A DNA stretch of 40,091 nucleotides from Acidimicrobiia bacterium (GTDB lineage Bacteria > Actinomycetota > Acidimicrobiia > Spongiisociales > Spongiisociaceae), in contig VXRE01000153.1 of assembly GCA_009838635.1 (NCBI GenBank), forward strand, positions 42,153 through 82,243. The letters are read 5' to 3'. The notes below the pieces were generated by a model. It saw nothing but the letters and a program-made list of their open reading frames with translations. It was not told the origin of the DNA and made no database searches. Below, in pieces: positions 972 to 38,189 of this stretch. A program made the position numbers and the translations under genes. The first letter of the stretch is position 1, and the number at the start of each line of letters is the position of its first letter.

Positions 972-2038
972 GCTACCGCCTCCAGGATCTGCTCGGGGGT
1001 CAGGTTGTCGATGCCCATATCCTCGAGGGAGCGGCCCTCGCTGCGGTAGTCCCTGCCGGTAGCCGCACCCGCGAGGGTGATAACCGAGTCGATCACGGGA
1101 GTGTGAACACCCGCCAGCCGGGCCATCCGGGTCATCGGCACCAGGCCGAGCGGCACGTCCTCGGTCACGTAGCGTCCGCGCATCCCTCCCGGGACGCCGA
1201 TGCCCCGCATCACGTTGGAGGCCAGTTGCCGCTCCGTATCCATCGGGTCGGATCCGACGATACCGTAGGAGCGCTCCAGCCAGGCGGGATGGCTCCGGAA
1301 GGGGATACCCAACGCGCCGGCGATCTCCATCCTCTCAGCATCAAGGGCCTCCATGGCCTGGACCACCGAGGGCGTCATCCCGTCGGCGTAGAAGTCGAAG
1401 TCGCCCCCGTCCATCGGTCCGGCGTTGAGCACCGCCACCACAGGGTGGGCCACAGGGTTTATGTTGTCGAAGCTGGTCTCGAGCACGGACGTGGCCGCCT
1501 CGACGTTGGGGAAGACGGGTTGGAGCACCCCGAGGACTTCGGGTGTCCCCGAGGCTCCGAGGGCCGCCGCGGAAAAGGCCCGCTTGACCCCGCCGATATG
1601 GACCGTTCCGGGCTCGACGACCCGGCAGGCATAAGCCAGGGTGTTGGTCTCGGCCAGCCGGACACCGGCCGGAACTCCGAGATCCGACCAGGTCTTTCGC
1701 ACCTCGAGGGCTCCGCCGAAGCCGCCCGGATGGAGAACCACCGTCTCATCACCTTGCAGCACCCCGGCCAGTTCCGAGGCGATGTAGCGGTGAGCGAAGC
1801 CGGGGACCGACACGAGTATCAGGTCGGCGCCCGAGACGGCTCTCGCCATGTCGGTGGTAGCCAGCTCGATGGGACCGGTCTCCTCCACCGCCCCGCCTGC
1901 CCGGATCTCGCCCAAGGACGCCAGAGGCTCGACAACCTCCGGGAATCGGTCGTACAGCCTCACGGAGTGACCTGCCCGACCGCAGCGCGCGGCGGTGGAC
2001 TGGCCACCGTTGCCCGCTCCCAGGATCGCTATCCGCAC
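968..2038 (-). CDS. NAD/NADP octopine/nopaline dehydrogenase family protein
   Basis: This 356-residue protein has an N-terminal Rossmann nucleotide-binding motif GAGNGG at residues 7-12. A VVLHPGGFGG segment follows near residue 100, then a C-terminal opine-dehydrogenase domain containing DNINPVAHP, whose histidine matches the usual catalytic position. Family members reductively condense, or oxidatively split, an amino acid and a 2-oxoacid using NAD(P)H. The GTG start overlaps the end of the MmgE/PrpD fusion gene by 10 bases, so both are in one operon behind operator site A. Its presence suggests that a secondary amine or imine of carboxylic acids is handled here. The exact substrate is unknown. 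Confidence 0.85.
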   Translation of the reverse strand: MRIAILGAGNGGQSTAARCGRAGHSVRLYDRFPEVVEPLASLGEIRAGGAVEETGPIELATTDMARAVSGADLILVSVPGFAHRYIASELAGVLQGDETVVLHPGGFGGALEVRKTWSDLGVPAGVRLAETNTLAYACRVVEPGTVHIGGVKRAFSAAALGASGTPEVLGVLQPVFPNVEAATSVLETSFDNINPVAHPVVAVLNAGPMDGGDFDFYADGMTPSVVQAMEALDAERMEIAGALGIPFRSHPAWLERSYGIVGSDPMDTERQLASNVMRGIGVPGGMRGRYVTEDVPLGLVPMTRMARLAGVHTPVIDSVITLAGAATGRDYRSEGRSLEDMGIDNLTPEQILEAVA

Positions 2039-4776
2039 AGGTCCACCATCACTTCCAGGAGGGTCGAAGCGTCTCTCACCGTCTCGAGTGTCCCGACCAG
2101 ACGGATCGCCTCGTCAACCTTGCTGCGGTTACCGCCCCCTGCCGAATCTAGCAACAGGGTCCGTCTGTCGGGGAGGTGGAGCGGGAGAACGGAGCGGTCT
2201 CCTTCGAGGCTCTCGGTGTGGCCCGAAGCCATGGTCACCGTGACCCGGGCGAACCATGGGTCCCTTCCCGGCTCGTACCGGAGAGCGACACCGTCCGCCG
2301 GCTCCGCGCCCTCCGGGGCCCCGTTGGCCCCGTGGTCCTCTTCGCGGGGACCGCCTGCCAACATCTGCGCAAGGGCGCGGCGCAGGGCTGCGGCTTGGGA
2401 TACTTGGTGCTCTGAGCCTCGGAGGCGGGTTCGGGCGACGTGGTCCCAGCGTCTGCGGGTCTCGGGCAGCAGCACTTCCACCTCAACCGGCTCCCCGGCA
2501 TCGCCGGCCAGCCTCGCGCCCAGCCGGGAGGCCAGCTCCACCGGGACAAGATGGTTGGGATCAAGGCCATGGCGGCTGACCACGGCCCGTTCCAGCCCGA
2601 ACCTGGTCCCCAGTCCTGACAGCGACCGATCCAGATCTGTCGGAACCGTCCCGAGCGTCGATCTGTACAACCCGAACTCTCCCTCGATCATGAGATCGGC
2701 CGCCGGGAATCCCGCCTCGGCGAGGATGGCGGCGTACACGCCGTTGCGTGCCAACTGCGCATTGACGAGCGCCTCTTCCTCGACGCCCTCGATCAATCCC
2801 ATCGTCAGGTGGCAGGCCTGCCCGATGGCATCCGCCGTCCGCTCCTCGTCGAGCCCGAGCAGGCGGGCCGCTGTGCAGGCCACGGCCACGGGACCGAACA
2901 CGCAGTCGGCCCGGCGGGCGGTCGCGGCGCCCCAAGCCCATGTTCCGGCGGACAGCGCCAGGCCGGCGTCGTACCCCACCGCGATCGCCACCAGGAACTC
3001 CTGCCCGGATACCGCCCGGTCCTCGCTCAGCCCTAGCGCCGCCGGAATGATCAACGCCCCCGGACGCATCCCTCCGGCCATGCTGTCCTGCCGGCCCCGC
3101 GTCTGCATGCTCAGCGAGTTGGCGAACACCGCGTCGAGCAGGCGGAGCGAAGGCTTCCGGCCGATGGCGGAATAGTCGCCCGGTGGCCTGCCCGGGCAGG
3201 CGCCTTTGGGCGGCCGGTCCGCCAATGCCAACCCGAGGTGGTGGACGAGCAGATCCTTGCCGCGCTCGAGCACCGCCGGAGGGAAGTCCTCGTACCTGGC
3301 TCCGCTCACGTAGGAGGCGATCCGCCGGGACGCGGTCGAGCCGGGTTCCCGATCGAGACCCGGAGAGATCGCCGGTGTCGTATCAGGTCGGTCGGCGAAC
3401 CGGTCGAGCACTGTCCACAGCTCGGAGGCATGGCGGGACTCCTCGAGCCGCTCCACCGAGGCCACGAAGCCCTCGATCGCAGACGGGGAGGCTGCGGGAA
3501 GGAGGTCGGTCAACCACTCCCGGTAGTCCATCGGCGGGGTCGGGGTCGCGTGATGACCCTCCCGCACGTGCTCGTGGCCGTCGGTGGTCACAACCGTGAG
3601 GCGGGCCGAGCGCAGGGGTAGCCCCTCCACGAAGTCCATTGATGTCCGGGCGAGCAGGTCCACGAAGCCCGCCGGCATGTCCTCGCGGTAACGGGCCGGT
3701 TTCAGCTTGCCGTCCCACAACCAGGCGGCCGCCAGGAATCGGGGAGAGGCGTAGCGGGTGATGTACCGGCGTTCACCGTCCCGGTAGCGGCGGAAGTTCC
3801 GGTCGAAGTCCTCCTCGCGGGGCCGCCGTTCCTCGGGGAGGGCGAGCCGGATCGAGGCCACGTCCTCCACGGTCACCCCCGTGCTGCGGATGAGGTTGTC
3901 CATCAGCTCCACGGGCACCACATTGAAGCCACTGCACGCGTAACGCTTGCGGAACGCGTGCGCGAGCCCGTAGTCGCTTCCCAACCCGTCCATGGCTGCG
4001 ACCACCTCTCCGGGAACGGCCCCGAGGTAGGTCTCGTACAGCCCGTACGGGCCGTCCAGAACGCTCGGAGTGGAACGGTGTCCGTCCGCGGCCAGCAAGG
4101 TCGCCATGACGCCGTTGCGGGTCACATGGGGATACAGGATGCCGGCGAAGGGAGTTCCCTCGATGAGGCCGACCGCGCCGTTGGCGGCCAGCCCCAGCGC
4201 GTGCGCGGATCTGCGCGGTCCGAGGCCCAGCAGGCGGGACGCCACCGCCGCCACACCGAGCGGACCCACCACGCAACCGGACCGGCGCGGCGTACTCACC
4301 CCCCAGGTCCAGCCACCGCGTGCGGTCGCGACCAGGACGTCGTAGCCGGCCACCACCGCGGCCAGAAAGTCCCGGCCGCTGACGGTCCTGGTTTCCGGCA
4401 ATGCCAGGGCCGTGGGGTATACCAGCACCCCCGGATGGGTGCCGCCGAGAGCCGCGTCGTCGAGCGCGTCCGCACCCATGAGGAGGGAGTTGGCGAAGAC
4501 CGCATCGAGCAGGCCGTACCGGCCGGGTGTTCCGAGAATGCGGTGCCGCCCTCCCTCACCGGAAATCCTACGAGCCACCGCGCGGGCCCGCCGGGGACGC
4601 GGGTAGTCCACGGCAGCGAGGGCCAGACCGACATGGTGGACGAGGTGGTCCTTGGCCAGCCCGACGATCTCCGATGGGATCGTCTCGAACGCGAGGCCGG
4701 AGACGTGTTCGGCCAGCCGGTGGATCAGGGGAGTGCGGTCCTCTTCATCCCGCGCATCGGCGGTCGCCATCGACAT
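2029..4776 (-). CDS. Tandem fusion of two MmgE/PrpD-family domains
   Basis: This 915-residue protein is about twice the usual MmgE/PrpD length. Residues ~10-455 form a complete domain (LAEHVSGLAFETIPSEIV, GGTHPGVLVYPTALAL, FNVVPVELMDNL). Residues ~470-915 form a second domain (ASYVSGARYEDFPPAVL, VFANSLSMQ). MmgE/PrpD proteins are dehydratases, epimerases or decarboxylases of di- and tricarboxylates such as 2-methylcitrate, cis-aconitate and iminodisuccinate. The second half is shortened after its first helices and in its C-terminal part. The conserved histidine of THPG is arginine there (GGMRPG), so it may be catalytically dead. The ATG at 4776 is chosen because site A sits directly upstream; an in-frame ATG at 4770 is possible. 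The track ORF extends further only by reading through the promoter. Confidence 0.88.
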   Translation of the reverse strand: MSMATADARDEEDRTPLIHRLAEHVSGLAFETIPSEIVGLAKDHLVHHVGLALAAVDYPRPRRARAVARRISGEGGRHRILGTPGRYGLLDAVFANSLLMGADALDDAALGGTHPGVLVYPTALALPETRTVSGRDFLAAVVAGYDVLVATARGGWTWGVSTPRRSGCVVGPLGVAAVASRLLGLGPRRSAHALGLAANGAVGLIEGTPFAGILYPHVTRNGVMATLLAADGHRSTPSVLDGPYGLYETYLGAVPGEVVAAMDGLGSDYGLAHAFRKRYACSGFNVVPVELMDNLIRSTGVTVEDVASIRLALPEERRPREEDFDRNFRRYRDGERRYITRYASPRFLAAAWLWDGKLKPARYREDMPAGFVDLLARTSMDFVEGLPLRSARLTVVTTDGHEHVREGHHATPTPPMDYREWLTDLLPAASPSAIEGFVASVERLEESRHASELWTVLDRFADRPDTTPAISPGLDREPGSTASRRIASYVSGARYEDFPPAVLERGKDLLVHHLGLALADRPPKGACPGRPPGDYSAIGRKPSLRLLDAVFANSLSMQTRGRQDSMAGGMRPGALIIPAALGLSEDRAVSGQEFLVAIAVGYDAGLALSAGTWAWGAATARRADCVFGPVAVACTAARLLGLDEERTADAIGQACHLTMGLIEGVEEEALVNAQLARNGVYAAILAEAGFPAADLMIEGEFGLYRSTLGTVPTDLDRSLSGLGTRFGLERAVVSRHGLDPNHLVPVELASRLGARLAGDAGEPVEVEVLLPETRRRWDHVARTRLRGSEHQVSQAAALRRALAQMLAGGPREEDHGANGAPEGAEPADGVALRYEPGRDPWFARVTVTMASGHTESLEGDRSVLPLHLPDRRTLLLDSAGGGNRSKVDEAIRLVGTLETVRDASTLLEVMVDLCG

Positions 4777-4792
4777 CGGACTACGATATCGG
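4770..4792. promoter_or_regulatory. Operator site A of the island-wide 23-bp dyad
   Basis: The core ATCGGACTACGATATCGG matches the shared dyad (TATCG, 5-bp spacer, CGATA, outer CGG). It lies between two divergent MmgE/PrpD genes and runs into the first codons of the minus-strand fusion gene. Read on the minus strand, the hexamer TATCGT fits an actinobacterial -10 (TAnnnT) and ends 6 bases before the ATG at 4776, which would give a leaderless transcript. A protein bound here would control both directions. Confidence 0.75.
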
Positions 4793-4827
4793 TTACCGAG
4801 ATCAGGTTCAAGGGAGACCAAACCCGC

Positions 4828-6174
4828 ATGACCGACAGCGGCCCGTCCATCAGCGAGCGGCTGGCTCGCTACATCCGCTCGCTGCGGTTCGAGGACCTTC
4901 CCACCGAGATCGTGGAGCGCGTCAAGGATCACCTCGTCCATCACGTCGCCCTAGGGCTCGAGGGCCGGAACAGCGAGTACGGGCATTACGCACGGCGGAC
5001 GGCGGCGCGGTTGAGCGAGGCCGGCGGGCGCTTCTCCGCCATCGGCGAGAGGCCGTCGCTCGAGTTGCTCGATGCGGTGTTTGTCAACTGCCTGTACATG
5101 CACCAGAGCGGGCAGGACGACTCGGAGTCGGGCGGCACCCATCCCGGCGTGCTCGTATATCCCACAGCTCTCAACCTGGCGCAGGACCGTACCGTGAGCG
5201 GCAGGGAACTCCTCACGGCCTGCGCCATCGGCTACGACGTGGCGATGGTCCTCAGCGCCGGAACCTGGGCCTGGACTGCTCCCGCGCCGCGGAGACCCAA
5301 TGCGATCTTCGGTCCGGTTGCGGTGGCCGCCACCTCCGCCCGGCTGCTGGGCCTATCCGAGTCACGAACGGTCAATGCGCTGGGCCTAGCCTGCCACGGC
5401 GCGCTGGGCCTGATCGAAGGCACCCGGTTCATCTGGGTGGTGTACCCGTGGGAGTGCCAGGCCGGGGTGTTCGCAGCAGTACTGGCCGAGTCGGGCTTCC
5501 CGGCCGCGCCGAGCATGATCGAAGGAGACTTCGGCCTCTACCAGACCCTCCTCCAGGAGATCCCGGCCGAGATCGACGAGAACCTCGCCACCCTGGGATC
5601 CCGTTTCCGCATCACAGAAGCCCGGGTCAAGCAATACCGGGCCAGCAACCTGAACGCCGGCATCCTCGACACCACCAAGCGGGTGAGCGAGACGATGGAC
5701 CTGAGGCCGGAGCATGTCGAGTCGATCCTCATCGAACTCCCCGAGAGCAGGCGCCTGCGAGAGAAGCGCATGGAGGAGAACTTCTCCAAGTACACGGATA
5801 TCGTCTCGCGGATCGGCTCCCTACCCTTCCTCATGGCCCGGCTGATCCAGGACCGCGAACTGGACCACCGGACGTACCTCGACCCCATCTCGGATGACTT
5901 GCAGTCCCTGCTCGATTCGATCACCCTGAGCTTTGTCGACGAGGCGGTTCCCAAGTACTACGCGAGGGTCACCATACGGACCAGCGCCGGAGCGGTCGAG
6001 ACATTCGAACACGGCCGCGACGGCGTGCGTTATCCGAAGGTGGACCGGGAGGCATGGATGGCCAAGTGCGTGGGAGACGATCCGCCCATCGATGTAGGGC
6101 GCTTCCTCCGACTTGTCGACGAACTGGAGACACTGCCCGATGCGTCCGTGCTGCTTGACGCCATCGAGCATTGA
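4828..6174 (+). CDS. MmgE/PrpD family protein
   Basis: This 448-residue protein has the usual length for MmgE/PrpD, an all-helical N-terminal domain followed by a smaller alpha/beta domain. Diagnostic segments are the N-terminal LARYIRSLRFEDLPTEIVER, the acid and histidine signature QDDSESGGTHPG near residue 100, GYDVAMVLSAGTWAW, and FGPVAVAATSARLLGL. It is related to both halves of the divergent fusion gene and keeps the THPG histidine that the fusion's second half has lost. The ATG at 4828 follows AAGGGAG; the longer track ORF runs through the promoter and operator. It is the first gene of a plus-strand operon reaching to about 8596. The likely reaction is dehydration or epimerisation of a polycarboxylate; the substrate is unknown. 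Confidence 0.9.
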   Translation: MTDSGPSISERLARYIRSLRFEDLPTEIVERVKDHLVHHVALGLEGRNSEYGHYARRTAARLSEAGGRFSAIGERPSLELLDAVFVNCLYMHQSGQDDSESGGTHPGVLVYPTALNLAQDRTVSGRELLTACAIGYDVAMVLSAGTWAWTAPAPRRPNAIFGPVAVAATSARLLGLSESRTVNALGLACHGALGLIEGTRFIWVVYPWECQAGVFAAVLAESGFPAAPSMIEGDFGLYQTLLQEIPAEIDENLATLGSRFRITEARVKQYRASNLNAGILDTTKRVSETMDLRPEHVESILIELPESRRLREKRMEENFSKYTDIVSRIGSLPFLMARLIQDRELDHRTYLDPISDDLQSLLDSITLSFVDEAVPKYYARVTIRTSAGAVETFEHGRDGVRYPKVDREAWMAKCVGDDPPIDVGRFLRLVDELETLPDASVLLDAIEH

Positions 6175-6238: not shown

Positions 6239-6664
6239 ATGGATCGACCGGAACTGTTCATCGTTCACTGGCTTCACGTGTTCCTGGCCATCTACTGGTT
6301 CGGGGCGATCCTGTTCTCGCGCGTGAGCCTCTTTCCTGCGCTGCGCAGGCTGGGGCCCGAGTCCCTCGAGGAGGTACGCGGCGCCATGAAGGCGGGACAC
6401 GGCACCAAGATCACCTACACCGCAGCGATTGGAACGGTCACACTCGGATGGATCCGGGGATTCATCGACGGAGGGCTGGACGATCTGGGGAGCCTCTACG
6501 GGCAGCTGTACCTGACCGCGGGAATCCTCGGAATTCTGATGGTGGTCTACCTGGTCGGCCCTCTCTACGACAGGCCGGTCCTGAACATCATGTACGTCTG
6601 GGCCTTCCCGGTCATGTTCACCATGATGGTCATGATGAGGTTCGCCGGACTCTTCGGATGGTGA
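6239..6664 (+). CDS. Small four-helix membrane protein, CopD/DUF2269-like
   Basis: This 141-residue integral membrane protein has about four helices. It begins with FIVHWLHVFLAIYWFGAIL and ends with the methionine-rich FPVMFTMMVMMRF. The pattern of histidine and tryptophan in helix 1 resembles CopD/DUF2269-type membrane proteins, some of which relate to copper or haem, but I cannot assign a function. AAAGGAG lies 8 bases before the ATG. A clear paralogue sits at 16407 with the same HWLHV opening and FPVIFTMMVLMRF ending, also in the regulon. Here it lies between the MmgE/PrpD and racemase genes of the operon. Duplication inside one regulon suggests a role in membrane redox or transport linked to the pathway. 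Confidence 0.7.
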   Translation: MDRPELFIVHWLHVFLAIYWFGAILFSRVSLFPALRRLGPESLEEVRGAMKAGHGTKITYTAAIGTVTLGWIRGFIDGGLDDLGSLYGQLYLTAGILGILMVVYLVGPLYDRPVLNIMYVWAFPVMFTMMVMMRFAGLFGW

Positions 6665-9914: not shown

Positions 9915-9937
9915 CCGATATTGGGATGCGATATCGA
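9915..9937. promoter_or_regulatory. Operator site B of the island-wide dyad
   Basis: The core GATATTGGGATGCGATATCG fits the shared dyad with one changed base in the left arm. It lies between the divergent DadA-like gene and the first CCG-domain gene. Its left end covers the GGAGG that serves the minus-strand gene. Confidence 0.72.
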
Positions 9938-13445: not shown

Positions 13446-14713
13446 CAGAAGGTCGCTAGGAGACCACCGCCGGCCGCGGTCAGGATGACCACCAGCCATG
13501 GGGGGAGCTTCCAGAAGGCTAGGAGCCCCAGGGCGACCAGGGCCAGGCCGAAGTCCTCCGGGGTGAGGATGGCGCTCGACCAGAGAGGGTCGTAGAGGGC
13601 GGCTAGCAGGATCCCCACCACGGCGGCGTTGACCCCACGTAGCACCGCCTGCACCTCGGCGCGGGCGCGGAGCGCGCCGAACGACGGGAGCGTCGCGACC
13701 ACGATCAGGAAGGAGGGCAGGAAGATGGCCAGGAGAGCCAGCAGCGCGCCCCCGACCCCGTTCGGCGCCGTCCCCAGGGAAGCCCCGAGATAGGCCGAGA
13801 ACGTGAAGATCGGCCCCGGCACCGCCTGAGCCGCGCCGAAGCCGGCGATGAAGGTGTCCTCGTCAACCCAGCCGGGCCCCACCACTTCGCTCTCGAGAAG
13901 GGGCAGCACCACCGGGCCTCCGCCGAACACCAGCGCCCCGGAACCGTAGAAGGCGTCGGCTGTCGCGATGGCCTGCTCATCGGAGGCGGCCCGGGCCACC
14001 GGCAGCAGGGCCAGCAGGGCGAAGAACAGGACCGCGCTGATCACCGCGGCCCGGCGTCCGGACCCGAGTTGGTACGAACGGGGGGCGGTGGCCTCACGGC
14101 GCAGGAAGAACCAGCCCACGATCCCCCCCAGGATGATCACGATCACGATGGTGGTGCGGGCCGACGAGGGGAAGGCGATCACCGCCAGCGTGGCCACGAC
14201 CGCGATCGAGCTGCGGAACCGGTCCGGGGCCAGCTGCCGCCACAGCTTCCATACCGCGAGTCCGACCACCGGTACCGCCACCACGACCAGCCCGTGTATC
14301 CATCCGGCCGCCTGCTCTGTGAGCTCGGAGGCCGTCAGGCCGAGCACGGTCATGATCACAGCCGAAGGAAGGGTGAACCCGAGGAAGGCCGCGAAACCGC
14401 CCCACAACCCACCGCGTGCCATGCCGATCGCCATGCCGAGCTTGCTGCTTCCCGCCCCAGGAAAGGCCTGCGAAAGGGCGACCAGATCGGCGAAGGTCTC
14501 CTCGTCCACCCACCGGCGCCGCTGGACGTACTCGTCCTGGAAGTAGCCGATGTGGGCGATGGGCCCGCCGAAGGAAGTCAGCCCGAGGCGTAGAGCGACC
14601 CAGAATATCTCGATTACCGATCCCCGCTCGGGGTTGAAGGTTCCGGAACCGGCTCCCGCGTCCTGGTTGCTCGGCTTGCTATCGTCCGTCACCGGTTTCC
14701 TCTGACCATGCAT
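13445..14713 (-). CDS. chrA: CHR-family (chromate transporter type) two-domain protein
   Basis: This 422-residue full-length CHR protein has two homologous halves. The first carries RLGLTSFGGPIAHIGYFQDEYVQRRRWVDEE-type sequence and ALSQAFPGAGSSKLGMAIG. The second carries GALVFGGGPVVLPLLE, WVDEDTFIAGFGAAQAVPGPIFTFSAYLG. These repeated FGGP and PGP motifs define the family, with roughly ten or more helices. ChrA exports chromate by proton antiport. Here the gene leads a minus-strand operon with a FhuF-like and a CCG protein under operator site C, so chromate may not be the substrate. No Shine-Dalgarno sequence precedes the ATG at 14713 and site C starts only 7 bases away, so the transcript may be leaderless or nearly so. 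Confidence 0.9.
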   Translation of the reverse strand: MHGQRKPVTDDSKPSNQDAGAGSGTFNPERGSVIEIFWVALRLGLTSFGGPIAHIGYFQDEYVQRRRWVDEETFADLVALSQAFPGAGSSKLGMAIGMARGGLWGGFAAFLGFTLPSAVIMTVLGLTASELTEQAAGWIHGLVVVAVPVVGLAVWKLWRQLAPDRFRSSIAVVATLAVIAFPSSARTTIVIVIILGGIVGWFFLRREATAPRSYQLGSGRRAAVISAVLFFALLALLPVARAASDEQAIATADAFYGSGALVFGGGPVVLPLLESEVVGPGWVDEDTFIAGFGAAQAVPGPIFTFSAYLGASLGTAPNGVGGALLALLAIFLPSFLIVVATLPSFGALRARAEVQAVLRGVNAAVVGILLAALYDPLWSSAILTPEDFGLALVALGLLAFWKLPPWLVVILTAAGGGLLATF

Positions 14714-14719
14714 CGCGTG

Positions 14720-14742
14720 CCAATATCGGGCTACGATACCAG
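14720..14742. promoter_or_regulatory. Operator site C of the island-wide dyad
   Basis: The core AATATCGGGCTACGATACC shares 17 consecutive bases with site D. It lies 7 bases upstream of the chrA start on the minus strand and about 100 bases before the padR start on the plus strand. Read on the minus strand, TATCGT could be the -10 of the chrA operon, so binding would block the promoter directly. Confidence 0.78.
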
Positions 14743-14843: not shown

Positions 14844-15221
14844 ATGATTAAGACCGACCGTATCGATGGTCATCCCACATTCGAAGGCCACAGCAAGCTA
14901 TTTCGCGACATCCTGCTGGGCTTCGTGAGGGTGCACGTGCTCGACTGTGCGAGCAGGGGTCCCGTGTACGGAGTAGCGCTCAACGACGAGCTGGCGACCC
15001 ACGGCTACAACCTGTCGCCAGGAACCCTCTACCCGCTCCTCCACGGACTGGAGGAGATCGGGTTCCTCGAACGCTCTCCCGAGGTGGTCGGCGGCAAGGT
15101 GCGGAAGTACTACTCGCTGACAGATCGCGGACAGCAGGCGCTGGAGGACCTGCGCCCCAAGATCCGCGAGCTCGTATCCGATGTCCTGGACGGCGAGGCT
15201 GTTGCCGCCGGATCCCGGTAG
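14844..15221 (+). CDS. PadR-family transcriptional regulator
   Basis: This 125-residue winged-helix protein is of PadR type. It has the recognition-helix region LSPGTLYPLLHGLEE starting at residue 57, the wing KVRKYYSLTDRGQQAL at residues 85-100, and a short C-terminal dimerisation helix. PadR proteins are usually repressors released by small aromatic or hydrophobic ligands. It is the only transcription factor found in the window and sits beside operator site C and an LLM oxidoreductase gene. This makes it the leading candidate to bind the eight-copy dyad, although that dyad is unlike the ATGT-N8-ACAT sites known for some PadR members. A weak AGGTG precedes the ATG. Confidence 0.93.
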   Translation: MIKTDRIDGHPTFEGHSKLFRDILLGFVRVHVLDCASRGPVYGVALNDELATHGYNLSPGTLYPLLHGLEEIGFLERSPEVVGGKVRKYYSLTDRGQQALEDLRPKIRELVSDVLDGEAVAAGSR

Positions 15222-16210: not shown

Positions 16211-16343
16211 ACCGGTGATACGAGCCCCGGGGATGACGGGCGGCCCGTTGATGTTGGTCCCGATCCGGGGATCTAGAGCCGGCATGATCAGGGAATTCCC
16301 GGGCACGCGCTCGATTTGCAAGCCTTCCTACCGATTCCGGCTA

Positions 16344-16366
16344 CCGATATCGGGCTACGATACCGG
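16344..16366. promoter_or_regulatory. Operator site D of the island-wide dyad (best match)
   Basis: The core GATATCGGGCTACGATACC has arms CCG-TATCG and CGATA-CGG, each outer base paired, around GGCTA; only one pair inside the arms is mismatched. The left half is itself a perfect 10-bp palindrome, CCGATATCGG. It lies 40 bases upstream of the small membrane protein gene at 16407 within a gap of 196 bases. The rest of that gap holds only the ribosome binding site and no other feature I recognise. Confidence 0.82.
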
Positions 16367-16406
16367 CTGGGCGTTTTGTGCGCCGGTATGAGTGGGGAGG
16401 CCGGTA

Positions 16407-16820
16407 ATGGCTTGGGACGTGTTCATAGTTCATTGGCTTCATGTGGCCTTCGGAATCTTCTGGGCGGGCTCGATCGCCTTCACCCGGGTCACCCTGTTCC
16501 CCGCCCTCGCCACCCTCCCGAAGGAGCAGGCGGAGGCGGCTCGCGGTTCGCTATTGACCGCCAAGGCCCGCCAGATCACGTTGATCACTGCGGGCGGGAC
16601 GGTCGTCACGGGAATCCTGCGCGGGCTGATGACCGGCGTGCTCGACCAACTCAACACCTCGTACGGGTGGATCTTCATCCTGTCGGGGGTACTGGGAATA
16701 CTCATGTTCGTATTCCTCCTCAACCGCGTGCCCACGCCCGCCTTCCTGAGGACTGTCTACGTTGCCGCCTTCCCGGTGATCTTCACCATGATGGTCCTCA
16801 TGCGCTTCGGCGGCTTCTAG
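16407..16820 (+). CDS. Small four-helix membrane protein, CopD/DUF2269-like, copy 2
   Basis: This 137-residue membrane protein is a paralogue of the one at 6239. Both share FIVHWLHV at the start, an LFPAL segment after helix 1, a central glycine-rich helix pair and a FPVIFTMMVLMRF end. The ATG at 16407 (MAWDVF) is preferred over the track start five residues earlier because GGGGAGG lies six bases before it and the length then matches copy 1. It stands alone behind operator site D and ends 14 bases before the convergent MFS gene. The function is unknown; a membrane redox or small-molecule role is possible. Confidence 0.72.
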   Translation: MAWDVFIVHWLHVAFGIFWAGSIAFTRVTLFPALATLPKEQAEAARGSLLTAKARQITLITAGGTVVTGILRGLMTGVLDQLNTSYGWIFILSGVLGILMFVFLLNRVPTPAFLRTVYVAAFPVIFTMMVLMRFGGF

Positions 16821-18144: not shown

Positions 18145-18167
18145 GCGAGATCGGATACCGATATCGG
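18145..18167. promoter_or_regulatory. Operator site E of the island-wide dyad
   Basis: The core GAGATCGGATACCGATATCGG fits the dyad, with CCGATATCGG as a perfect palindrome in the right half. It lies between the MFS gene and CCG copy 3. The AT-rich GATAATATAA that follows directly looks like a -10 region for the plus-strand gene, so the site would overlap the promoter spacer. Confidence 0.77.
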
Positions 18168-19329: not shown

Positions 19330-21039
19330 CTAGTCGGCGCCTTCTGTCGACGTACCACCATCGGGACGGTCCAGAACCACGTCGACAACGTAGGGTGTCG
19401 AGGCTTCCATTCCCCGTTTCATAGCCGGTCCCAGGTCTCGCGGCGTGTCCACCCTCTCCGCCGGAATCCCCAACGAAGCGGCCAGCGCCACGAAGTCGAC
19501 GTCCGGGCCTTGGATGTCGAGGCCGGGCAGATCCGACCCGGCTTCGCTCCAGGGTCCGCCCATGCGGTTCACTATCAGTTCGAGAACCCGGTATCCACCA
19601 TTGTTCAGGATTACGACGAGCACCGGCAAGTTCCGGTTCGCCAGGTTCCATAGCGCGTGCGGGTAGTAGAGGAACGACCCGTCTCCCACCGCCACCACGA
19701 CCTTCCGATCGGTCCGTGCCACCTGTAAGCCTGCCGCGGCCCCGACCGAGTACCCGAGGGATATCCCGTTGGCGCCGAAGTAGGAGAGCGGGTCGGGAAA
19801 CTCGAGGGTGTTCACGAACGAGGGCCGGTTCGAAATCGTCTCGTCCACGAGGATCCCGCCGGGCGGCATGTTGTCACGGATGGCCGCGGCGACCCCGACG
19901 GCGGTCGGCCTGCCGGTGGCAGCCTCTTCCTGGGTCTTTCGGTCCCAATCCGAGCGCCGCCTCGTTGCCTCATCGTGCAGCCCTCGGGCCCTACGGGCAG
20001 CGGCTGCCCGATCGAGCGGAGTTTCCTCGAGAGCAGTGCGCAGGCGCCGCAGGTTCGCTCCCACGTCGCCGAGCAGGGCTGCCGAGGCGGGGTGGTTCTT
20101 ACCGATCTCGCTCGGGCTGTCGTCCAGTACCACCGTCTTCACATGAAACGGGATCAAGGGGCCACCCTCGTCGTAACGGGAGACCGGCGCCGCCGAGGTA
20201 ACCCCGCACAGGAGTGCCACATCGGCTCGGGCGAAGTTGGCTCGCATGCCGGCCGCCAGGTTGGGCATGGGCCCTAGATACAGGGGGTGCCGGGAGGGGA
20301 AGTTCCAGAGTGTTGCATAACCCTCTGTGTACACACGGGCGCCGAGAGCCTCGGCAATGGCGACCAGTTCATCCCAGCCGTGGGCGAGGCCCACTCCGTC
20401 GCCGGCCACGATCATCGGCTGCTCGGCGGATGCCAGCACCCGGACGGCTACCTGGATTGCCTGGTCGCTCGCAATCGAACGTGTCGGCTCGGTGACCCGC
20501 GCCGGCCCGAAGCCGTCATGCTTCTCGAGCAGAACGTCCGGCGGTATCGATACGAAGACCGGCGCGAACGGGGGGGTGGCAAGTTCCTTGAAGGCCTTGT
20601 GCATGACCATGGGAAGCTCTTCGAGGAAGCGAACGTCGTACGACCATTTGGTGAACTGCCCGACCATGGAGAGAAGGTCCGAGCTGAGTATCGGGTCCTG
20701 GACCCGTAAGCCCGTGTGGTGCTGGCCTGCGGTCACCAGGAGCGGGACCCGGGCCCGGTGGGCGTTGTAGAGGTTGCCGAGGCCGTGGGCGACGCCAGGC
20801 GTAACATGGAGGTTCACGACCCCGACCTTGCCCGATGCCCGTGCGTAGCCGGTGGCTTGGGCCACCGCAACGTCCTCGTGGAGGGACAGGACATACTCGA
20901 TGGACGGGTAGTCGTTGCACCCGTCGACGAGGGGGAGCTCGGTGGTGCCCGGATTACCGAAGATGTAATGAACATCGTGGCTGACCAGGTATTCGAAGAA
21001 GATGTCCCGTCCGAGGGGCGTGAGCCCGGAACCCGTCAC
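19330..21039 (-). CDS. Thiamine-diphosphate enzyme, benzoylformate decarboxylase-like
   Basis: This 569-residue protein has the three-domain layout of ThDP 2-oxoacid enzymes. The N-terminal PYR domain has FGNPGTTELPLVDG, as in benzoylformate decarboxylase, and the activating glutamate E55 in LHEDVAVAQATGYARASG. A central domain follows, then the C-terminal PP domain with the metal motif GDGSFLYYPHALWNLANR ending in ILNNGGYR. It may decarboxylate a 2-oxoacid to an aldehyde; acetolactate-type carboligation is less likely from the GNPGTTE opening. The GTG at 21039 has AAGGAGA upstream. It is divergent from an acyl-CoA dehydrogenase across operator site F. The substrate is unknown. Confidence 0.87.
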   Translation of the reverse strand: MTGSGLTPLGRDIFFEYLVSHDVHYIFGNPGTTELPLVDGCNDYPSIEYVLSLHEDVAVAQATGYARASGKVGVVNLHVTPGVAHGLGNLYNAHRARVPLLVTAGQHHTGLRVQDPILSSDLLSMVGQFTKWSYDVRFLEELPMVMHKAFKELATPPFAPVFVSIPPDVLLEKHDGFGPARVTEPTRSIASDQAIQVAVRVLASAEQPMIVAGDGVGLAHGWDELVAIAEALGARVYTEGYATLWNFPSRHPLYLGPMPNLAAGMRANFARADVALLCGVTSAAPVSRYDEGGPLIPFHVKTVVLDDSPSEIGKNHPASAALLGDVGANLRRLRTALEETPLDRAAAARRARGLHDEATRRRSDWDRKTQEEAATGRPTAVGVAAAIRDNMPPGGILVDETISNRPSFVNTLEFPDPLSYFGANGISLGYSVGAAAGLQVARTDRKVVVAVGDGSFLYYPHALWNLANRNLPVLVVILNNGGYRVLELIVNRMGGPWSEAGSDLPGLDIQGPDVDFVALAASLGIPAERVDTPRDLGPAMKRGMEASTPYVVDVVLDRPDGGTSTEGAD

Positions 21040-21066
21040 CGGAGAAAGTCTCCTTGAACTCGCGAA

Positions 21067-21089
21067 CCGATATCGGGATACGTTACCGA
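21067..21089. promoter_or_regulatory. Operator site F of the island-wide dyad
   Basis: The core GATATCGGGATACGTTACC fits the dyad with one change in the right arm (CGTTA for CGATA), and its left half is the perfect palindrome CCGATATCGG. It is centred in the 112-base gap between the ThDP enzyme and acyl-CoA dehydrogenase genes. Confidence 0.76.
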
Positions 21090-23655: not shown

Positions 23656-23702
23656 CGGTATGTCCCGGGGAGGCGGTCCTCGAGCGAGGCTAGCATCGAG
23701 AC

Positions 23703-23725
23703 CCGATATCGACATGTGAGATCAG
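23703..23725. promoter_or_regulatory. Operator site G of the island-wide dyad
   Basis: The left arm CCGATATCG is intact and the right arm is weaker (TGAGATCAG). It lies between the aminotransferase and the third MmgE/PrpD gene and ends 12 bases before the ATG at 23738. It is the most degenerate of the eight copies. Confidence 0.62.
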
Positions 23726-25904: not shown

Positions 25905-25927
25905 CCAATTACGGATCCCGATATCAT
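25905..25927. promoter_or_regulatory. Operator site H of the island-wide dyad
   Basis: On the minus strand the core GATATCGGGATCCGTAAT fits the dyad, with an intact left arm and a weaker right arm (CGTAA). It lies 37 bases before the GTG of aconitase X and 57 bases before the ATG of racemase copy 2, so it can serve both. Confidence 0.66.
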
Positions 25928-25963
25928 GATCCGAGTTCGAGTTCCTAGACCAGGGCGGCCTGG

Positions 25964-27678: not shown

Positions 27679-28403
27679 TCGCCGGGGGACGTACCGTATA
27701 CGGGCTCGAGCTCGGCGTGCTGATGCTGGATACCGTGTTCCCGCGGCTGGTCGGCGACGTGGGCAACGCCGGCACGTGGCCGTTCCCGGTCCGGTACCGG
27801 ATCGTCCCGGGGGCGACCGCCCGCCGAGTCGTACAGCAGCCGGACGATGCTCTGCTCGACCTGTTCATCGACGGCGCCAGGAGCCTGGAACGGGACGGCG
27901 TGCGCATGATCACCACCAGCTGCGGCTTCCTGGCCCTCTACCAGAAGGAGGTGGCGGCCGCCGTCTCCGTCCCGTTCCTGTCATCTTCCCTGCTCCAGGT
28001 GCCCCACGCCTCCCGGCTCGTGGGACCCGATAGGAAGGTCGGGATCCTCACGATGAGCCGCGACGACCTGACCGAGGCCCACTACGAGGGGGTGGGATGG
28101 TCCTCGACCGACCATCCGGTGGCGGTGTCCTCCTTCGCCCCCGGCGCAGCGTTCTGGGAGACCTATCTGGTAGGCCGGGAGACGGTCGATCCGCAAGAAC
28201 TCGAGACGGAATTGCTCGAACTCGGCAACGACCTGCTCGCCCGTTCTCCGGACGTGGGCGCGCTGGTGCTCGAGTGCACCAACTTCGCTCCGTTCGCCCC
28301 CGTCCTCCGCCAGGAGCTCGGCGTGCCCGTGTTCGACTTGGCAACGCTGGTGTTCCAGACCCACATGGCCATATCGGGCGCCGATTTCGAGGGACTCGGT
28401 TGA
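27675..28403 (+). CDS. Asp/Glu racemase superfamily protein, copy 3
   Basis: This 242-residue protein starts MIAGGRTVYGLELGVLMLDT, parallel to its two paralogues, and keeps both cysteines in TTSCGFL and VLECTNF. The start is fixed by the ATGA overlap with the swivel subunit, and its stop overlaps the TTG of the next gene. It shares GDVGNAGTWPFPV with the others. Being translationally coupled to aconitase X suggests it acts on the substrate or product of that dehydratase, for example by preparing the right stereoisomer; this is inference. Confidence 0.88.
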   Translation: MIAGGRTVYGLELGVLMLDTVFPRLVGDVGNAGTWPFPVRYRIVPGATARRVVQQPDDALLDLFIDGARSLERDGVRMITTSCGFLALYQKEVAAAVSVPFLSSSLLQVPHASRLVGPDRKVGILTMSRDDLTEAHYEGVGWSSTDHPVAVSSFAPGAAFWETYLVGRETVDPQELETELLELGNDLLARSPDVGALVLECTNFAPFAPVLRQELGVPVFDLATLVFQTHMAISGADFEGLG

Positions 28404-29473
28404 GCGACTCTGCCGGCGCGACCCCTCAGGGGGCCATCCTCGTGGCGGCTTCCCATCTCAAGGACTTCACCGTCCGGGTGTTCCGGGCACTGGGCATGCC
28501 GGAGGGCGATGCCGGGCTGATGGGTGACCACATCACGTGGGCTCACGCTCATGGTCACGCCTGGCTGGGCGCACCCAAGATCATCCAGTACGGAACGAGG
28601 ATCAGGACCGGTGCGTCGTCGCCGATCGACAGGACGGCCGTCGTGTCGGAGACCGGCGCCTTCACGCTGCTCGACGCCCGCGACGCCTTCAGCCAGATCG
28701 CCGGCGTCCGGGCCATGGAACTCGCCATCCGCAAAGCCGGGGAGATCGGCGCTGCGGTCTCGGTGGTGCGCAATACGACTTCCGCAGGATCCCTCGGGTA
28801 CTTCGCCCTTCTCGCAGCCGAGCGCGGCATGATCGGCATGGCCAACAACAACGCACCCGCTCTGATGCCGCCGTGGGGGGGAACCACCAAGCTGATAGGC
28901 AACCAGGCCTTCGCGGTCGCCAGCCCGGCCGGCCGCCACGACCCAGTGCTCCTCGACATGGCCCTGTCCGAGATGACCCTCGTCCGCTACCACGAGTACG
29001 AGGAGCGAGGGGAGCAACTGCCCGAAGGCGTCGCGCTCGATGCGACGGGCCGTCCCACCACCGACCCCACCGAGGCTTTGGCGGGGATGATGGTTCCGAT
29101 GGGTGGGCACAGAGGCTACGGGCTGGCGGTGATGTGGGAGGTGCTCACCGGGGTCCTCTCGGGCTCGCTGCGCTTCCTCGACGAAGTCACCATGCCGGGC
29201 GTGTTCGACCGCCCGCAGGCGGTGAGCATGTTCTTTCTCGCCATTAGCCCGGAGATGTCGATGCCCTACGAGGAGTTCGTCGATCGGGTCGACAGCCTGG
29301 TGGACAGGGTGCATTCGTCACCGCCGGCGCCGGGCGTCGAGCGGGTCTACGTGCCGGGCGAGCGGAGCGCGCGAGTCGCCAGGGACCGTATGCGGGACGG
29401 AATCCCCATGCCGCCATCCCTGGTGGCCGACCTCGCCGGCTTCGGCGCCGAGATAGGAGTCCCATGGGAATGA
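28400..29473 (+). CDS. Ldh2-family (malate/L-lactate dehydrogenase type) oxidoreductase, copy 1
   Basis: This 357-residue protein belongs to the Ldh2/MDH2/YlbC family, which includes malate, ureidoglycolate and lactate dehydrogenases and delta-1-pyrroline-2-carboxylate reductases using NAD(P)H. It shows SAGSLGYFALLAAERGMIG, WGGTTKLIGNQAFAVASP, and the C-terminal PMGGHRGYGLAVMWEVLTGVLSG. The TTG at 28400 overlaps the previous stop (TTGA) and is preceded by GAGGG; a GTG at 28441 is possible. The usual AHG at the active-site histidine appears as WLG here, so catalysis may be altered. It is the first of three tandem paralogues. Confidence 0.86.
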   Translation: MSDSAGATPQGAILVAASHLKDFTVRVFRALGMPEGDAGLMGDHITWAHAHGHAWLGAPKIIQYGTRIRTGASSPIDRTAVVSETGAFTLLDARDAFSQIAGVRAMELAIRKAGEIGAAVSVVRNTTSAGSLGYFALLAAERGMIGMANNNAPALMPPWGGTTKLIGNQAFAVASPAGRHDPVLLDMALSEMTLVRYHEYEERGEQLPEGVALDATGRPTTDPTEALAGMMVPMGGHRGYGLAVMWEVLTGVLSGSLRFLDEVTMPGVFDRPQAVSMFFLAISPEMSMPYEEFVDRVDSLVDRVHSSPPAPGVERVYVPGERSARVARDRMRDGIPMPPSLVADLAGFGAEIGVPWE

Positions 29474-30522
29474 ACCCAACCGTCCGCCTCTCCCGAGAGC
29501 AGATCCGCAGCGTGGCGTTTCCGCTGCTCCGAGCGATCGGGATGCCGCCCGAAGATGCCGCCATCACCGCCGACGCGATGGTATGGAACGAGCTGCGCGG
29601 CGCGCCGGGGCATGGCCTCGGCCGGATCTTCCAGATCCTGGAGAGGTCCCGGGCCGGAGGGCTGAACCTGGCTGTGGACTGGACACCGTTGCGGGAGACA
29701 AGCGGAACCGCCTTGCTCGACGCCTGCGACGGGTGGGGGGTGGTCGCAGGAACCAGAGCCATGGGGATCGCGGTGGACAAGGCCCGTGATGCCGGAGTGG
29801 GCGCCGTGGTGGTACGCAACAGCGATGTCACCTCGGCGATGGGCTACTACCCCTACGTAGCGGTCATGGCCGGGATGGTCGGCCTCGCTATCACCAACTC
29901 GGTCCCGCTCATGCCCCCATGGGGAGGAACCGAGGTACTTCTCGGCAACCAGGCCTTCGCTATCGGGGCGCCGACGCGCGACCATCCGCCGCTGATCTTC
30001 GACTCGTCCTCCAGCGCCTACAACATGGGGAAGATGCGTAGCGCCGCGGCCCACGGCGAGAAGCTGCCACCGGGCGTGGCTCTCGACGACACGGGAGAGG
30101 AAACGGACGACGCGGCGGCCGCTCTCGAGGCGTTGCGCCTCCTACCCATGGGCGGCCACCGGGGCGGGGGCCTGGCCATCATGTGGGAGGTTCTGACCGG
30201 GATCCTCGCCGGCCGCCGTTCAACCACCGAGGTCGTCGGCATGCAGGAACTGGACAGGACGGCGGGGGTGAGCCTGTACGTCCAGGCGGTGGACCCCAAG
30301 GCCTTCCTGTCCTACGAAGAGTTCCTGGCCCGAGTCGACCGTCTCATCGACCAGATCCACTCCAACCCGCCTCGCTCGGGTGTCGACCGGGTGAGAGTGC
30401 CGGGCGAGAGCAAGGCCGGCTTCGAATCCGAGTACCGGGCGCGAGGCGTACCGGTCCCTGCCGACCTCTTGGAACGGCTGCGGGCACTCTGCGGAGACTT
30501 CGGCCTGGCATGGCCGTTGTGA
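29464..30522 (+). CDS. Ldh2-family oxidoreductase, copy 2
   Basis: This 352-residue paralogue overlaps copy 1 by 10 bases. It opens RLSREQIRSVAFPLLRAIGMPPEDAAITADAMVW and shows LRGAPGHGLGRI with the expected catalytic histidine, VVRNSDVTSAMGYYP, PPWGGTEVLLGNQAFAIGAP and MGGHRGGGLAIMWEVLTG. Unlike copy 1 it keeps the histidine-glycine pair of the family. It probably reduces an imine or 2-oxo acid, or oxidises a 2-hydroxy acid, with NAD(P)H. Next to aconitase X this fits a delta-1-pyrroline-2-carboxylate reductase role, but other 2-oxo or imino acids are equally possible. Confidence 0.9.
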   Translation: MGMNPTVRLSREQIRSVAFPLLRAIGMPPEDAAITADAMVWNELRGAPGHGLGRIFQILERSRAGGLNLAVDWTPLRETSGTALLDACDGWGVVAGTRAMGIAVDKARDAGVGAVVVRNSDVTSAMGYYPYVAVMAGMVGLAITNSVPLMPPWGGTEVLLGNQAFAIGAPTRDHPPLIFDSSSSAYNMGKMRSAAAHGEKLPPGVALDDTGEETDDAAAALEALRLLPMGGHRGGGLAIMWEVLTGILAGRRSTTEVVGMQELDRTAGVSLYVQAVDPKAFLSYEEFLARVDRLIDQIHSNPPRSGVDRVRVPGESKAGFESEYRARGVPVPADLLERLRALCGDFGLAWPL

Positions 30523-31604
30523 GCACACGAGACCGGTCTTCCGCCGCACAGGAGACGGGCGTCGTCGAAGCGAGCGACCTGCGAGCCTTCACCGCCGCGG
30601 TCCTGGCGGCCCACAGCATGCCGGCTGCCGACGCCGCCCTCACGGCCGACGCCATGGTCTGGGCCGACCTGAGGGGAAGGTATGCGCACGGGGCCAGCAG
30701 CAAGCTGCCCCAGTGCGTGGCTCGTATCCGGGCCGGAGGGACGTCCCCTTCCGCCAACCTACCGGTACTCGGGGAGACCGGCGCCACCTTCGTGCTCGAC
30801 GGACGCAACGCATGGGGCCAGGTAGCGGCCTCGAGAGCGATGATGCGCGCCGTGGCCAAGGCTCGCTCGGTCGGCTTCGCCGTTGGTGTGGTCCGGGATT
30901 GCAGTTCCGCGGCCGCCATGGGCTATTACCCCCTGCTGGCGGTGGCGGAAGGCATGATCGGGATGGCCTTCACCAACGGACCCCCGCTCATCCCTCCCAC
31001 GGGCGGGACCACCAAGCTGCTGGGGAATCAGGCACACGCCATAGGCTGCCCGGCCGACCGCCACTACCCGATCGTGTACGACGCGGCGACCAGCGCCATG
31101 TCCACCTCGGAGATGGATCTCGTCCATGACCGCGGCGAACTCCTGCCACCAGGCGTCCTCTTCACCGCGGACGGACGGCCGACAAGAGATCCCTCGATCT
31201 GGGTGGACGGCCTGCTCGCTCCGGCGGGGGGACACCGAGGCTACGGGCTGTCACTCATGCTCGAGATACTCACCGGCGTCCTGGCCGGAGGCGCGAGGTT
31301 CGCGCCGGACGTGGGCCATCCGTTCCTGGGCGGGGAGCCCCAAGGCGTCGCCCTGTTCGTGGCGGCGATCGATCCGGAGCACTCGATCGGACACGAGGAG
31401 TTGACACGACGGGCCGACTCGCTGATCGAACGGCTGCATGCCTCAGAGGCCGCTCCCGGCACCGAGAGGATCTACGTACCGGGCGAGCGGAGCTTCATTC
31501 TGGCTGAGCAGCGGGAGCGGGACGGCATCCCGATGCCGACCGAGAGGCTGGAGGACCTCCGCCGGGTCGGTTCGGGCCTAGACATTTCGCTGACCTGGCG
31601 CTAG
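30510..31604 (+). CDS. Ldh2-family oxidoreductase, copy 3
   Basis: This 364-residue protein has a longer N-terminus than copy 2. It shows VEASDLRAFTAAVLAAHSMPAADAALTADAMVW, the catalytic-type LRGRYAHGASSK, VVRDCSSAAAMGYYP, TGGTTKLLGNQAHAIGCP and AGGHRGYGLSLMLEILTG. The ATG at 30510 is used; a GTG at 30519 would give a GTGA overlap with copy 2 and is a good alternative. The last bases overlap the convergent gene by 4. It ends the six-gene operon and marks the right edge of the catabolic island. Confidence 0.9.
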   Translation: MAVVSTRDRSSAAQETGVVEASDLRAFTAAVLAAHSMPAADAALTADAMVWADLRGRYAHGASSKLPQCVARIRAGGTSPSANLPVLGETGATFVLDGRNAWGQVAASRAMMRAVAKARSVGFAVGVVRDCSSAAAMGYYPLLAVAEGMIGMAFTNGPPLIPPTGGTTKLLGNQAHAIGCPADRHYPIVYDAATSAMSTSEMDLVHDRGELLPPGVLFTADGRPTRDPSIWVDGLLAPAGGHRGYGLSLMLEILTGVLAGGARFAPDVGHPFLGGEPQGVALFVAAIDPEHSIGHEELTRRADSLIERLHASEAAPGTERIYVPGERSFILAEQRERDGIPMPTERLEDLRRVGSGLDISLTWR

Positions 31605-34797: not shown

Positions 34798-35472
34798 ATG
34801 ACGCTACCTACTTATGCCGGCTTCGTGAACGCCGGGTTCCTGAGGGCCGAGGGCGCCCGAGCCCTTGATGAGAATCCCCGCAACGTGCGGATGGACAGCG
34901 AGGCCGTCGTCTCCTGGTTCCAGGACCTGACCTTCGACCGGGGGGCACGGTTCCTCCGGGCCTACTGGTACGACGCCCGGTTCGACAGCGGCCACGAGTT
35001 GGCGGATGGCCAGCGCCGCTTCTTCTCGGCCCTCGGCCAGACCCCGGGCATCCAACTCCGTCTCGGTCACATCGTTGAGTACCGGCCGTGGTTCGAGCAG
35101 GGAATCCGTGATGCCCTGACCCGCACTGCGGTTGCCCTCAACCTCGATCCGGACCGGGTGATGGACGAGTTTGACCAGCAGTGGACCTTCCGGCCCGAAC
35201 GTCGCCAGCGTGGGGTCGACACCATGCTGTGCTCCGACATCGTCCGGCTGTCCGGCCGCGGGGCATTCGACACGGCCGTGATCTTCTCCGGTGATCGGGA
35301 TCTGGCGGAAGCCTTGCGATCAGCCCAGGAGGTCGGAATCCGGGTGGTGATCGCCACGCCGGATCGACACAGCGTATCCCGCGAGATGAACGATCTCGCC
35401 GATGAGATACTCGAGCTGACCGAGGACGATCTCAGCTTGATGCTCCCGGAGAGGCTTCCCAGTTTGACGTAA
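34798..35472 (+). CDS. NYN domain (LabA/PIN-like) protein
   Basis: This 224-residue protein resembles NYN domains, PIN-like nucleases acting on RNA. It has the N-terminal strand YAGFVNAGFL, a central RGVDTMLCSDIVRL and the acidic FSGDRDLAEALRSAQEVGIRVVI, a typical order of acidic positions for NYN/LabA members. The first aspartate of the usual DxxN motif is replaced (GFVNAG keeps the asparagine), so activity may differ. It is followed by IATPDRHSVSREMNDLADEILEL. It has its own AT-rich promoter and precedes the helicase gene by 105 bases, possibly in one transcript. Confidence 0.8.
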   Translation: MTLPTYAGFVNAGFLRAEGARALDENPRNVRMDSEAVVSWFQDLTFDRGARFLRAYWYDARFDSGHELADGQRRFFSALGQTPGIQLRLGHIVEYRPWFEQGIRDALTRTAVALNLDPDRVMDEFDQQWTFRPERRQRGVDTMLCSDIVRLSGRGAFDTAVIFSGDRDLAEALRSAQEVGIRVVIATPDRHSVSREMNDLADEILELTEDDLSLMLPERLPSLT

Positions 35473-37970: not shown

Positions 37971-38189
37971 TCAGTGACCGTGGTGCTCGTGCGTGTCGCA
38001 CTCGTGGGGGTCGTGGACGTGGCCTTCCTCGTCACCGTGGTGCTCGTGCGTGTCGCACTCGTGCTCATCATGCTCGTGCTCATCGGCATGGTGCTCGTGC
38101 GTGTCGCACTCGTGGGGGTCGTGGACGTGGCCTTCCTCGTCACCGTGGTGCTCGTGCGTGTCGCACTCGTGCGTGTCGTGGGCACCCAT
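37971..38189 (-). CDS. Small His-rich repeat protein, probable metal-binding
   Basis: This 72-residue protein is almost wholly built of His, Asp, Glu and Cys (repeated DPHECDTHEHH and GDEEGHVH units), with four HECDTHEHH-type copies. Such sequences bind zinc, nickel or cobalt. It has no signal peptide or membrane helix, so it should be cytosolic. The ATG at 38189 has AAAGGAG seven bases upstream, which decides the frame against the longer 114-residue track ORF in another frame. It lies downstream of a ZnuB-like permease on the same strand, so a metal store or chaperone for imported zinc is plausible. The DNA holds two identical 83-base copies. Confidence 0.75.
   Translation of the reverse strand: MGAHDTHECDTHEHHGDEEGHVHDPHECDTHEHHADEHEHDEHECDTHEHHGDEEGHVHDPHECDTHEHHGH
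37981..38063. repeat. 83-bp direct repeat, copy 1
   Basis: This stretch inside the His-rich gene is identical base for base to 38089-38171, at a period of 108 bases (36 codons). Identity at synonymous positions implies recent duplication or gene conversion. Confidence 0.9.
38089..38171. repeat. 83-bp direct repeat, copy 2
   Basis: Second perfect copy of the 83-base unit at 37981, in the same reading frame of the His-rich gene. Confidence 0.9.

Follow-up and report, generated by a model that had tools for sequence, protein, structure and literature searches.

Does the sequence immediately upstream of an MmgE/PrpD fusion gene in this uncultured lineage of Acidimicrobiia (Actinobacteria) serve at once as a repressor's operator and as the core of a leaderless promoter, and, if so, which protein would bind it? 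The gene lies in a 40,091-nt stretch of DNA (the window, to which all coordinates refer unless contig C78 is named), which is part of contig C78 of a 2.9 Mb genome. Our reading, to which we give a probability of about 0.8, is that the sequence, called box A, is the operator of a PadR-family regulator encoded at 14844–15221 and is superimposed on a leaderless promoter, with PadR blocking expression and a ligand releasing it.

A predicted leaderless promoter at site A

The fusion gene (2029–4776, minus strand) encodes a protein of 915 aa, in which two stretches match the MmgE/PrpD N-terminal domain (Pfam PF03972, 4.9e-67). Read along the minus strand from 4811 to 4774, the region has the order TTGAAC-N17-TATCGT-N6-ATG. 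The -35 element (TTGAAC, 4806–4811) was assigned from the sequence and from relatives, and the -10 hexamer (TATCGT, 4783–4788) from these two sources as well as from a comparison of the promoters at padR loci. A 6-nt gap, AGTCCG (4782–4777), separates the hexamer from the ATG (4774–4776), which was placed with a four-genome alignment and whose A at 4776 is the predicted transcription start. The earlier note had claimed that TATCGT lies exactly six bases ahead of this ATG on the minus strand, and re-reading gives the same spacing (4788–4783 for the hexamer, 4776–4774 for the ATG). While the note thus had the -10 and the gap, it overlooked the -35 element and the regulator, as well as the 13-bp periodicity of the operator arms and the third of these arms, in which the start codon lies. 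There is no Shine-Dalgarno sequence ahead of the fusion-gene ATG (the preceding sequence is AACCGATATCGTAGTCCG), and CGA directly 5´ of TATCGT gives the hexamer the CGN-TANNNT form. A divergent gene, assigned to MmgE/PrpD with Pfam (4828–6174, plus strand), has box A in common with the fusion gene and carries AAGGGAG (4810–4816) ahead of its ATG.

The bare string TATCGT-N6-ATG has two matches in the genome, compared to five for a reversed control, and since it is not enriched the string alone proves nothing and other evidence is required. Across 718 kb of this genome, in which 495 genes were called heuristically, we surveyed TAnnnT hexamers ahead of start codons. At gaps of 6 to 10 nt before ATG there were 11, 12, 14, 13 and 7 cases, respectively, versus approximately two per gap elsewhere, and a weaker peak was also seen before GTG. 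The spacing agrees with that of published leaderless promoters in Actinobacteria (PMC3160421, PMC3898074). The sharpness of the peak before ATG indicates that leaderless genes are common in this genome, in a phylum in which 19.2% of genes are leaderless on average (PMC3160421), and the 6-nt gap at site A falls within this peak. No general -35 element was found in the leaderless promoters of the genome: TTGA at 17 bp was present in only one of 76 candidates, which makes the -35 at site A an exception.

Conservation of the layout and of the start codon

Orthologous regions were compared from two genomes of the same genus (G007 and G012) and one of another genus (G003), giving four genomes and two genera in all. 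In the alignment, TTGANC-N17-TATCGT-N6-ATG is kept without exception, with the -35 element reading TTGAAC in G007, TTGATC in G012 and TTGACC in G003. The layout is still intact in G003 next to a 25-nt insertion directly upstream of the promoter. The G003 sequence also has an in-frame stop upstream, with no start codon between the stop and the site A ATG, and in G012 the second ATG is changed to ATA, with no other start ahead of the conserved domain. Together, the stop in G003 and the lost ATG in G012 fix the ATG at 4776, by comparison, as the only usable start. A GTG at 4944 was also considered as the start of the fusion gene and was ruled out by its overlap with the divergent gene and by the G003 stop. 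The conserved layout and the TAnnnT peak in the genome support well the earlier proposal that the promoter is leaderless and its -10 part of the operator, and the sequences indicate that the fusion-gene mRNA probably has no leader.

The predicted operator is an array of three arms

Rather than forming a simple dyad, the predicted operator consists of CGATATCG-like arms repeated every 13 bp, mostly three per box; the resulting 34-bp array is equivalent to two overlapping inverted repeats. Box A (4771–4804) has a tri-arm score of 18/20. One arm, CGAGATCA (4797–4804), lies within the spacer between -35 and -10, the middle arm, CGATATCG (4784–4791), contains most of the -10, and the arm CGACATCG (4771–4778) contains the start codon. 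The arms are thus arranged around the -10 hexamer, such that the predicted regulator site covers the -10/+1 region. Approximately 12 intergenic arrays were found on contig C78. Among 638 kb sampled from other contigs of the genome, a single match reached 15/20 and none scored higher, compared to 18 for box A.

A PadR-family regulator as the likely partner of the boxes

The window encodes a 125-aa PadR-family winged-helix regulator (padR, 14844–15221, plus strand; Rv3488-like), the predicted cognate repressor. Its match to PF03551 (3.9e-18) reaches 65.6 bits against a 27-bit Pfam cut-off. Among the Rv3488-type PadRs (PDB 5zhc, 5zhv, 5zi8 and 7wh4), Rv3488 itself is the closest solved homologue (5zhc, 1.6e-20), though the window protein, at 91.2 bits, falls below the 140-bit cut-off of the NCBIfam Rv3488 family equivalog (NF053635). 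The PadR of genome G050, which has the same box beside its gene, scores 142.1 bits and is above this cut-off. The window padR gene starts ~100 bp from another box, box C, and has no evident promoter.

Among 15 genomes of the family, boxes with three or fewer mismatches were found only in G000, G003, G007 and G012, and a padR gene of at least 90% identity was found only in the same four. In a fifth family genome, G002, padR is split and a box remains beside it. At this locus (L074; contig C66, 63514–63880), padR is spread over two frames with one adjoining box, and there are few others in the 60 kb read; from the sequence, the G002 regulon looks like it is decaying.

Class- and phylum-wide searches provided 36 homologous padR loci. 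The three-arm box was present at 30 of these, with scores of 15–20 versus a shuffle maximum of 15, and in nearly all of the 30 it is located directly ahead of padR or of the operon to which padR apparently belongs. For more distant PadRs, box scores were 12–15, no better than chance. This co-occurrence and proximity are strong, if indirect, evidence that PadR binds the box, and the PadR at 14844–15221 is likely the regulator of the boxes. In a literature search largely restricted to papers outside subscription, we found no description of this PadR box; the comparison would link a widespread PadR subfamily to an operator that had no assigned regulator.

It is improbable that the boxes belong to a regulator encoded elsewhere or that PadR activates instead of repressing. 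The sign of regulation does not come with a sequence assignment, which leaves room for such readings, but the same box accompanies padR at 30 of the 36 homologous loci while distant PadRs do no better than chance, and the boxes lie over the -10/+1 region, a position from which a bound protein usually keeps the polymerase out.

Operator arms as -10 elements

The relation between box and promoter was examined at the 30 box-bearing padR loci, where a -35 element was scored if it carried TTG, matched at four or more of six positions and stood 16–18 bp from a TAnnnT. At 13 of the 30, arm 1 has a TAnnnT oriented towards padR with such a -35 upstream. The five internal controls (the opposite strand of arm 1, and either strand of arms 2 and 3) gave no -35/-10 pairs, and 2000 shuffles of the flanks gave a mean of 0.57 pairs and a maximum of 4. 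The internal controls thus argue for operator arms serving as -10 elements in many genera. The arm that holds the -10 is the middle arm at site A versus arm 1 in most relatives. At six loci (L078, L125, L127, L132, L145 and L153), a TAnnnT begins at box position +29, in arm 3, 6–9 nt before an ATG. This suggests that these padR genes are leaderless with a -10 in arm 3, though some of the cases in AT-rich loci will be coincidental.

Two other sites on the contig show the same superposition. The box at C78 39706 has its -10 inside the box (TTGACA-N18-TATCGT), and the window box at 21055–21088, conserved in four genomes, has a minus-strand -10 within arm 1. The promoter of the latter, TTGACA (21109–21104)-N18-TAACGT (21085–21080), leads to a TPP-enzyme gene (19330–21039) with a leader and an SD-like AAGGAG. 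At C78 28427, 34829 and 52068, however, the conserved TAnnnT falls beyond the box; at 34829, a relative with 2 nt inserted has a shifted box and an unmoved promoter. The earlier suggestion that the operator carries the -10 therefore applies to 13 of 30 padR loci, C78 39706 and window 21055 and does not extend to these three sites. In addition, the T that completes TATCGT is also found in boxes where this hexamer is not the promoter, indicating that the operator supplies the hexamer and was not specially bent at site A.

These observations bear on another explanation, in which the PadR operator is real, TATCGT is a by-product of CGATATCG followed by T, and the fusion gene has a different upstream promoter and a leader. 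The presence of TATCGT in the boxes at C78 28427 and 34829, where the conserved TAnnnT is elsewhere, and the lack of enrichment of the bare TATCGT-N6-ATG string are consistent with this explanation. We nevertheless consider it unlikely, given that TTGANC is kept exactly 17 bp away in all four genomes, one of them with 25 nt inserted directly upstream, and given the lack of a Shine-Dalgarno-like stretch ahead of the ATG and a 6-nt gap inside the leaderless peak of the genome.

A broader proposal is that, for Rv3488-type PadRs across Actinobacteria, the 13-bp-phased three-arm operator is a self-contained promoter and translation-start module. Its arms would provide the -10 and, where the mRNA is leaderless, the first transcribed base and the start codon as well, with one set of bases specifying both the promoter and the binding of the repressor. 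We regard the odds for this generalization as about even.

A model for site A and its relation to known systems

The superposition of operator and promoter suggests how the fusion gene could be controlled. With one arm of box A in the -35/-10 spacer, the middle arm forming the -10 and the third arm carrying the transcription start and the ATG, PadR bound to the array would cover the -10, the start site and the start codon, excluding RNA polymerase and keeping the catabolic gene silent. A ligand would free PadR and permit transcription from the A of the ATG, and ribosomes could then load straight onto the 5´ AUG of the released leaderless transcript. Sequence comparison provides the array and its conservation, the promoter, the start codon and the association of the box with padR; in this model, what we infer is that PadR binds and represses, that a ligand acts on it, and where exactly transcription begins.

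It is very unlikely that the promoter in box A instead reads the plus strand into the divergent MmgE/PrpD gene with the minus-strand signals being incidental. TACGAT (4782–4787) does fit TAnnnT and would leave a leader of ~34 nt with AAGGGAG before the ATG at 4828, but there is no -35 at 16–18 bp on the plus strand, the minus-strand -35 is conserved in four genomes, and the fusion gene would be left without any promoter. Both strands of box A could nonetheless be used, by analogy with the divergent cg0042/cg0043 pair of C. glutamicum (PMC2823685).

Leaderless mRNAs from regulated promoters with nearby or overlapping operators include phage lambda cI transcribed from PRM and tetR of Tn1721, whose regulators are unrelated and whose operators have a different architecture. 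Closer to box A, the Zur operator overlaps the leaderless core promoters of C. glutamicum cg0042, cg0043 and cg2911 (PMC2823685). In that system, as proposed here, an actinobacterial repressor has its operator over the core promoter, transcription starts at the A of the ATG and one operator serves a divergent pair. Zur, however, is a Fur-family zinc regulator with a 21-bp motif, whereas the PadR box has three arms phased at 13 bp, is 34 bp long and takes in the start codon too. Site A likewise resembles the leaderless promoters of M. tuberculosis and other Actinobacteria, which lack a Shine-Dalgarno sequence and have a TANNNT centred 7–12 bp before the start, frequently in the CGNTANNNT form described for mycobacterial promoters, where CGN often stands ahead of TANNNT (PMC3898074, PMC3160421). 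It differs from the M. tuberculosis promoters, which have no conserved -35 motif, in having TTGANC at 17 bp and in lying within an operator. Operators overlapping leaderless promoters are thus already known, and what is new here is the PadR box, its phylum-wide link to promoters and the regulon. The use of operator arms as -10 elements makes it possible to test, in a phylum with many leaderless mRNAs, whether regulatory and core-promoter sequences evolve as a single unit.

Other boxes and genes in the window

Only one of the ~12 regulon sites is leaderless in the manner of site A. Box C (14708–14741), identified by its three-arm score between chrA (minus strand) and padR (plus strand), had been described as similarly close to the chrA start. 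The likeness is only loose: TATCGT (14738–14733) is 19 nt ahead of the first in-frame ATG (14713), there is no conserved -35, and a conserved GTG farther along is preceded by an SD-like AGAGGA/AGGGGA of its own. Site C was therefore rejected as a second leaderless case.

The remaining boxes in the window are found ahead of a DAO gene and a divergent ORF (9916–9936, two arms, with a conserved TACCAT outside the box), upstream of a gene for a small predicted membrane protein (16332–16365, gene on the plus strand), upstream of a cysteine-rich-domain (CCG) gene (18146–18166, gene on the plus strand, with a conserved TAATAT just 3´ of the box), between aminotransferase (minus) and MmgE/PrpD (plus) genes (23691–23724), and between Asp/Glu racemase (minus) and aconitase X (plus) genes (25906–25939). 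Genes adjoining boxes encode an oligopeptide-type ABC transporter, several MmgE/PrpD proteins, racemases, aconitase X, a D-amino-acid-type oxidoreductase, a TPP enzyme and transporters. From this gene content, the ~12-site regulon, in a catabolic and transport island, would serve to import and degrade a carboxylic or amino-acid-like compound.

We also noted a further box-like pair, CCATATCG-N5-CGATTTCG (28369–28389), found in G007 too, which overlaps the end of an Asp/Glu racemase gene just 5´ of the first of three malate/L-lactate dehydrogenase (Ldh_2) paralogues in a row (28097–31604). Two related small proteins without a Pfam match are encoded at 6239–6664 and 16392–16820, with 75% identity over 75 nt, and in a repeat-rich region at 37981–38172 an 84-nt stretch is present twice at 100% identity, 108 nt apart.
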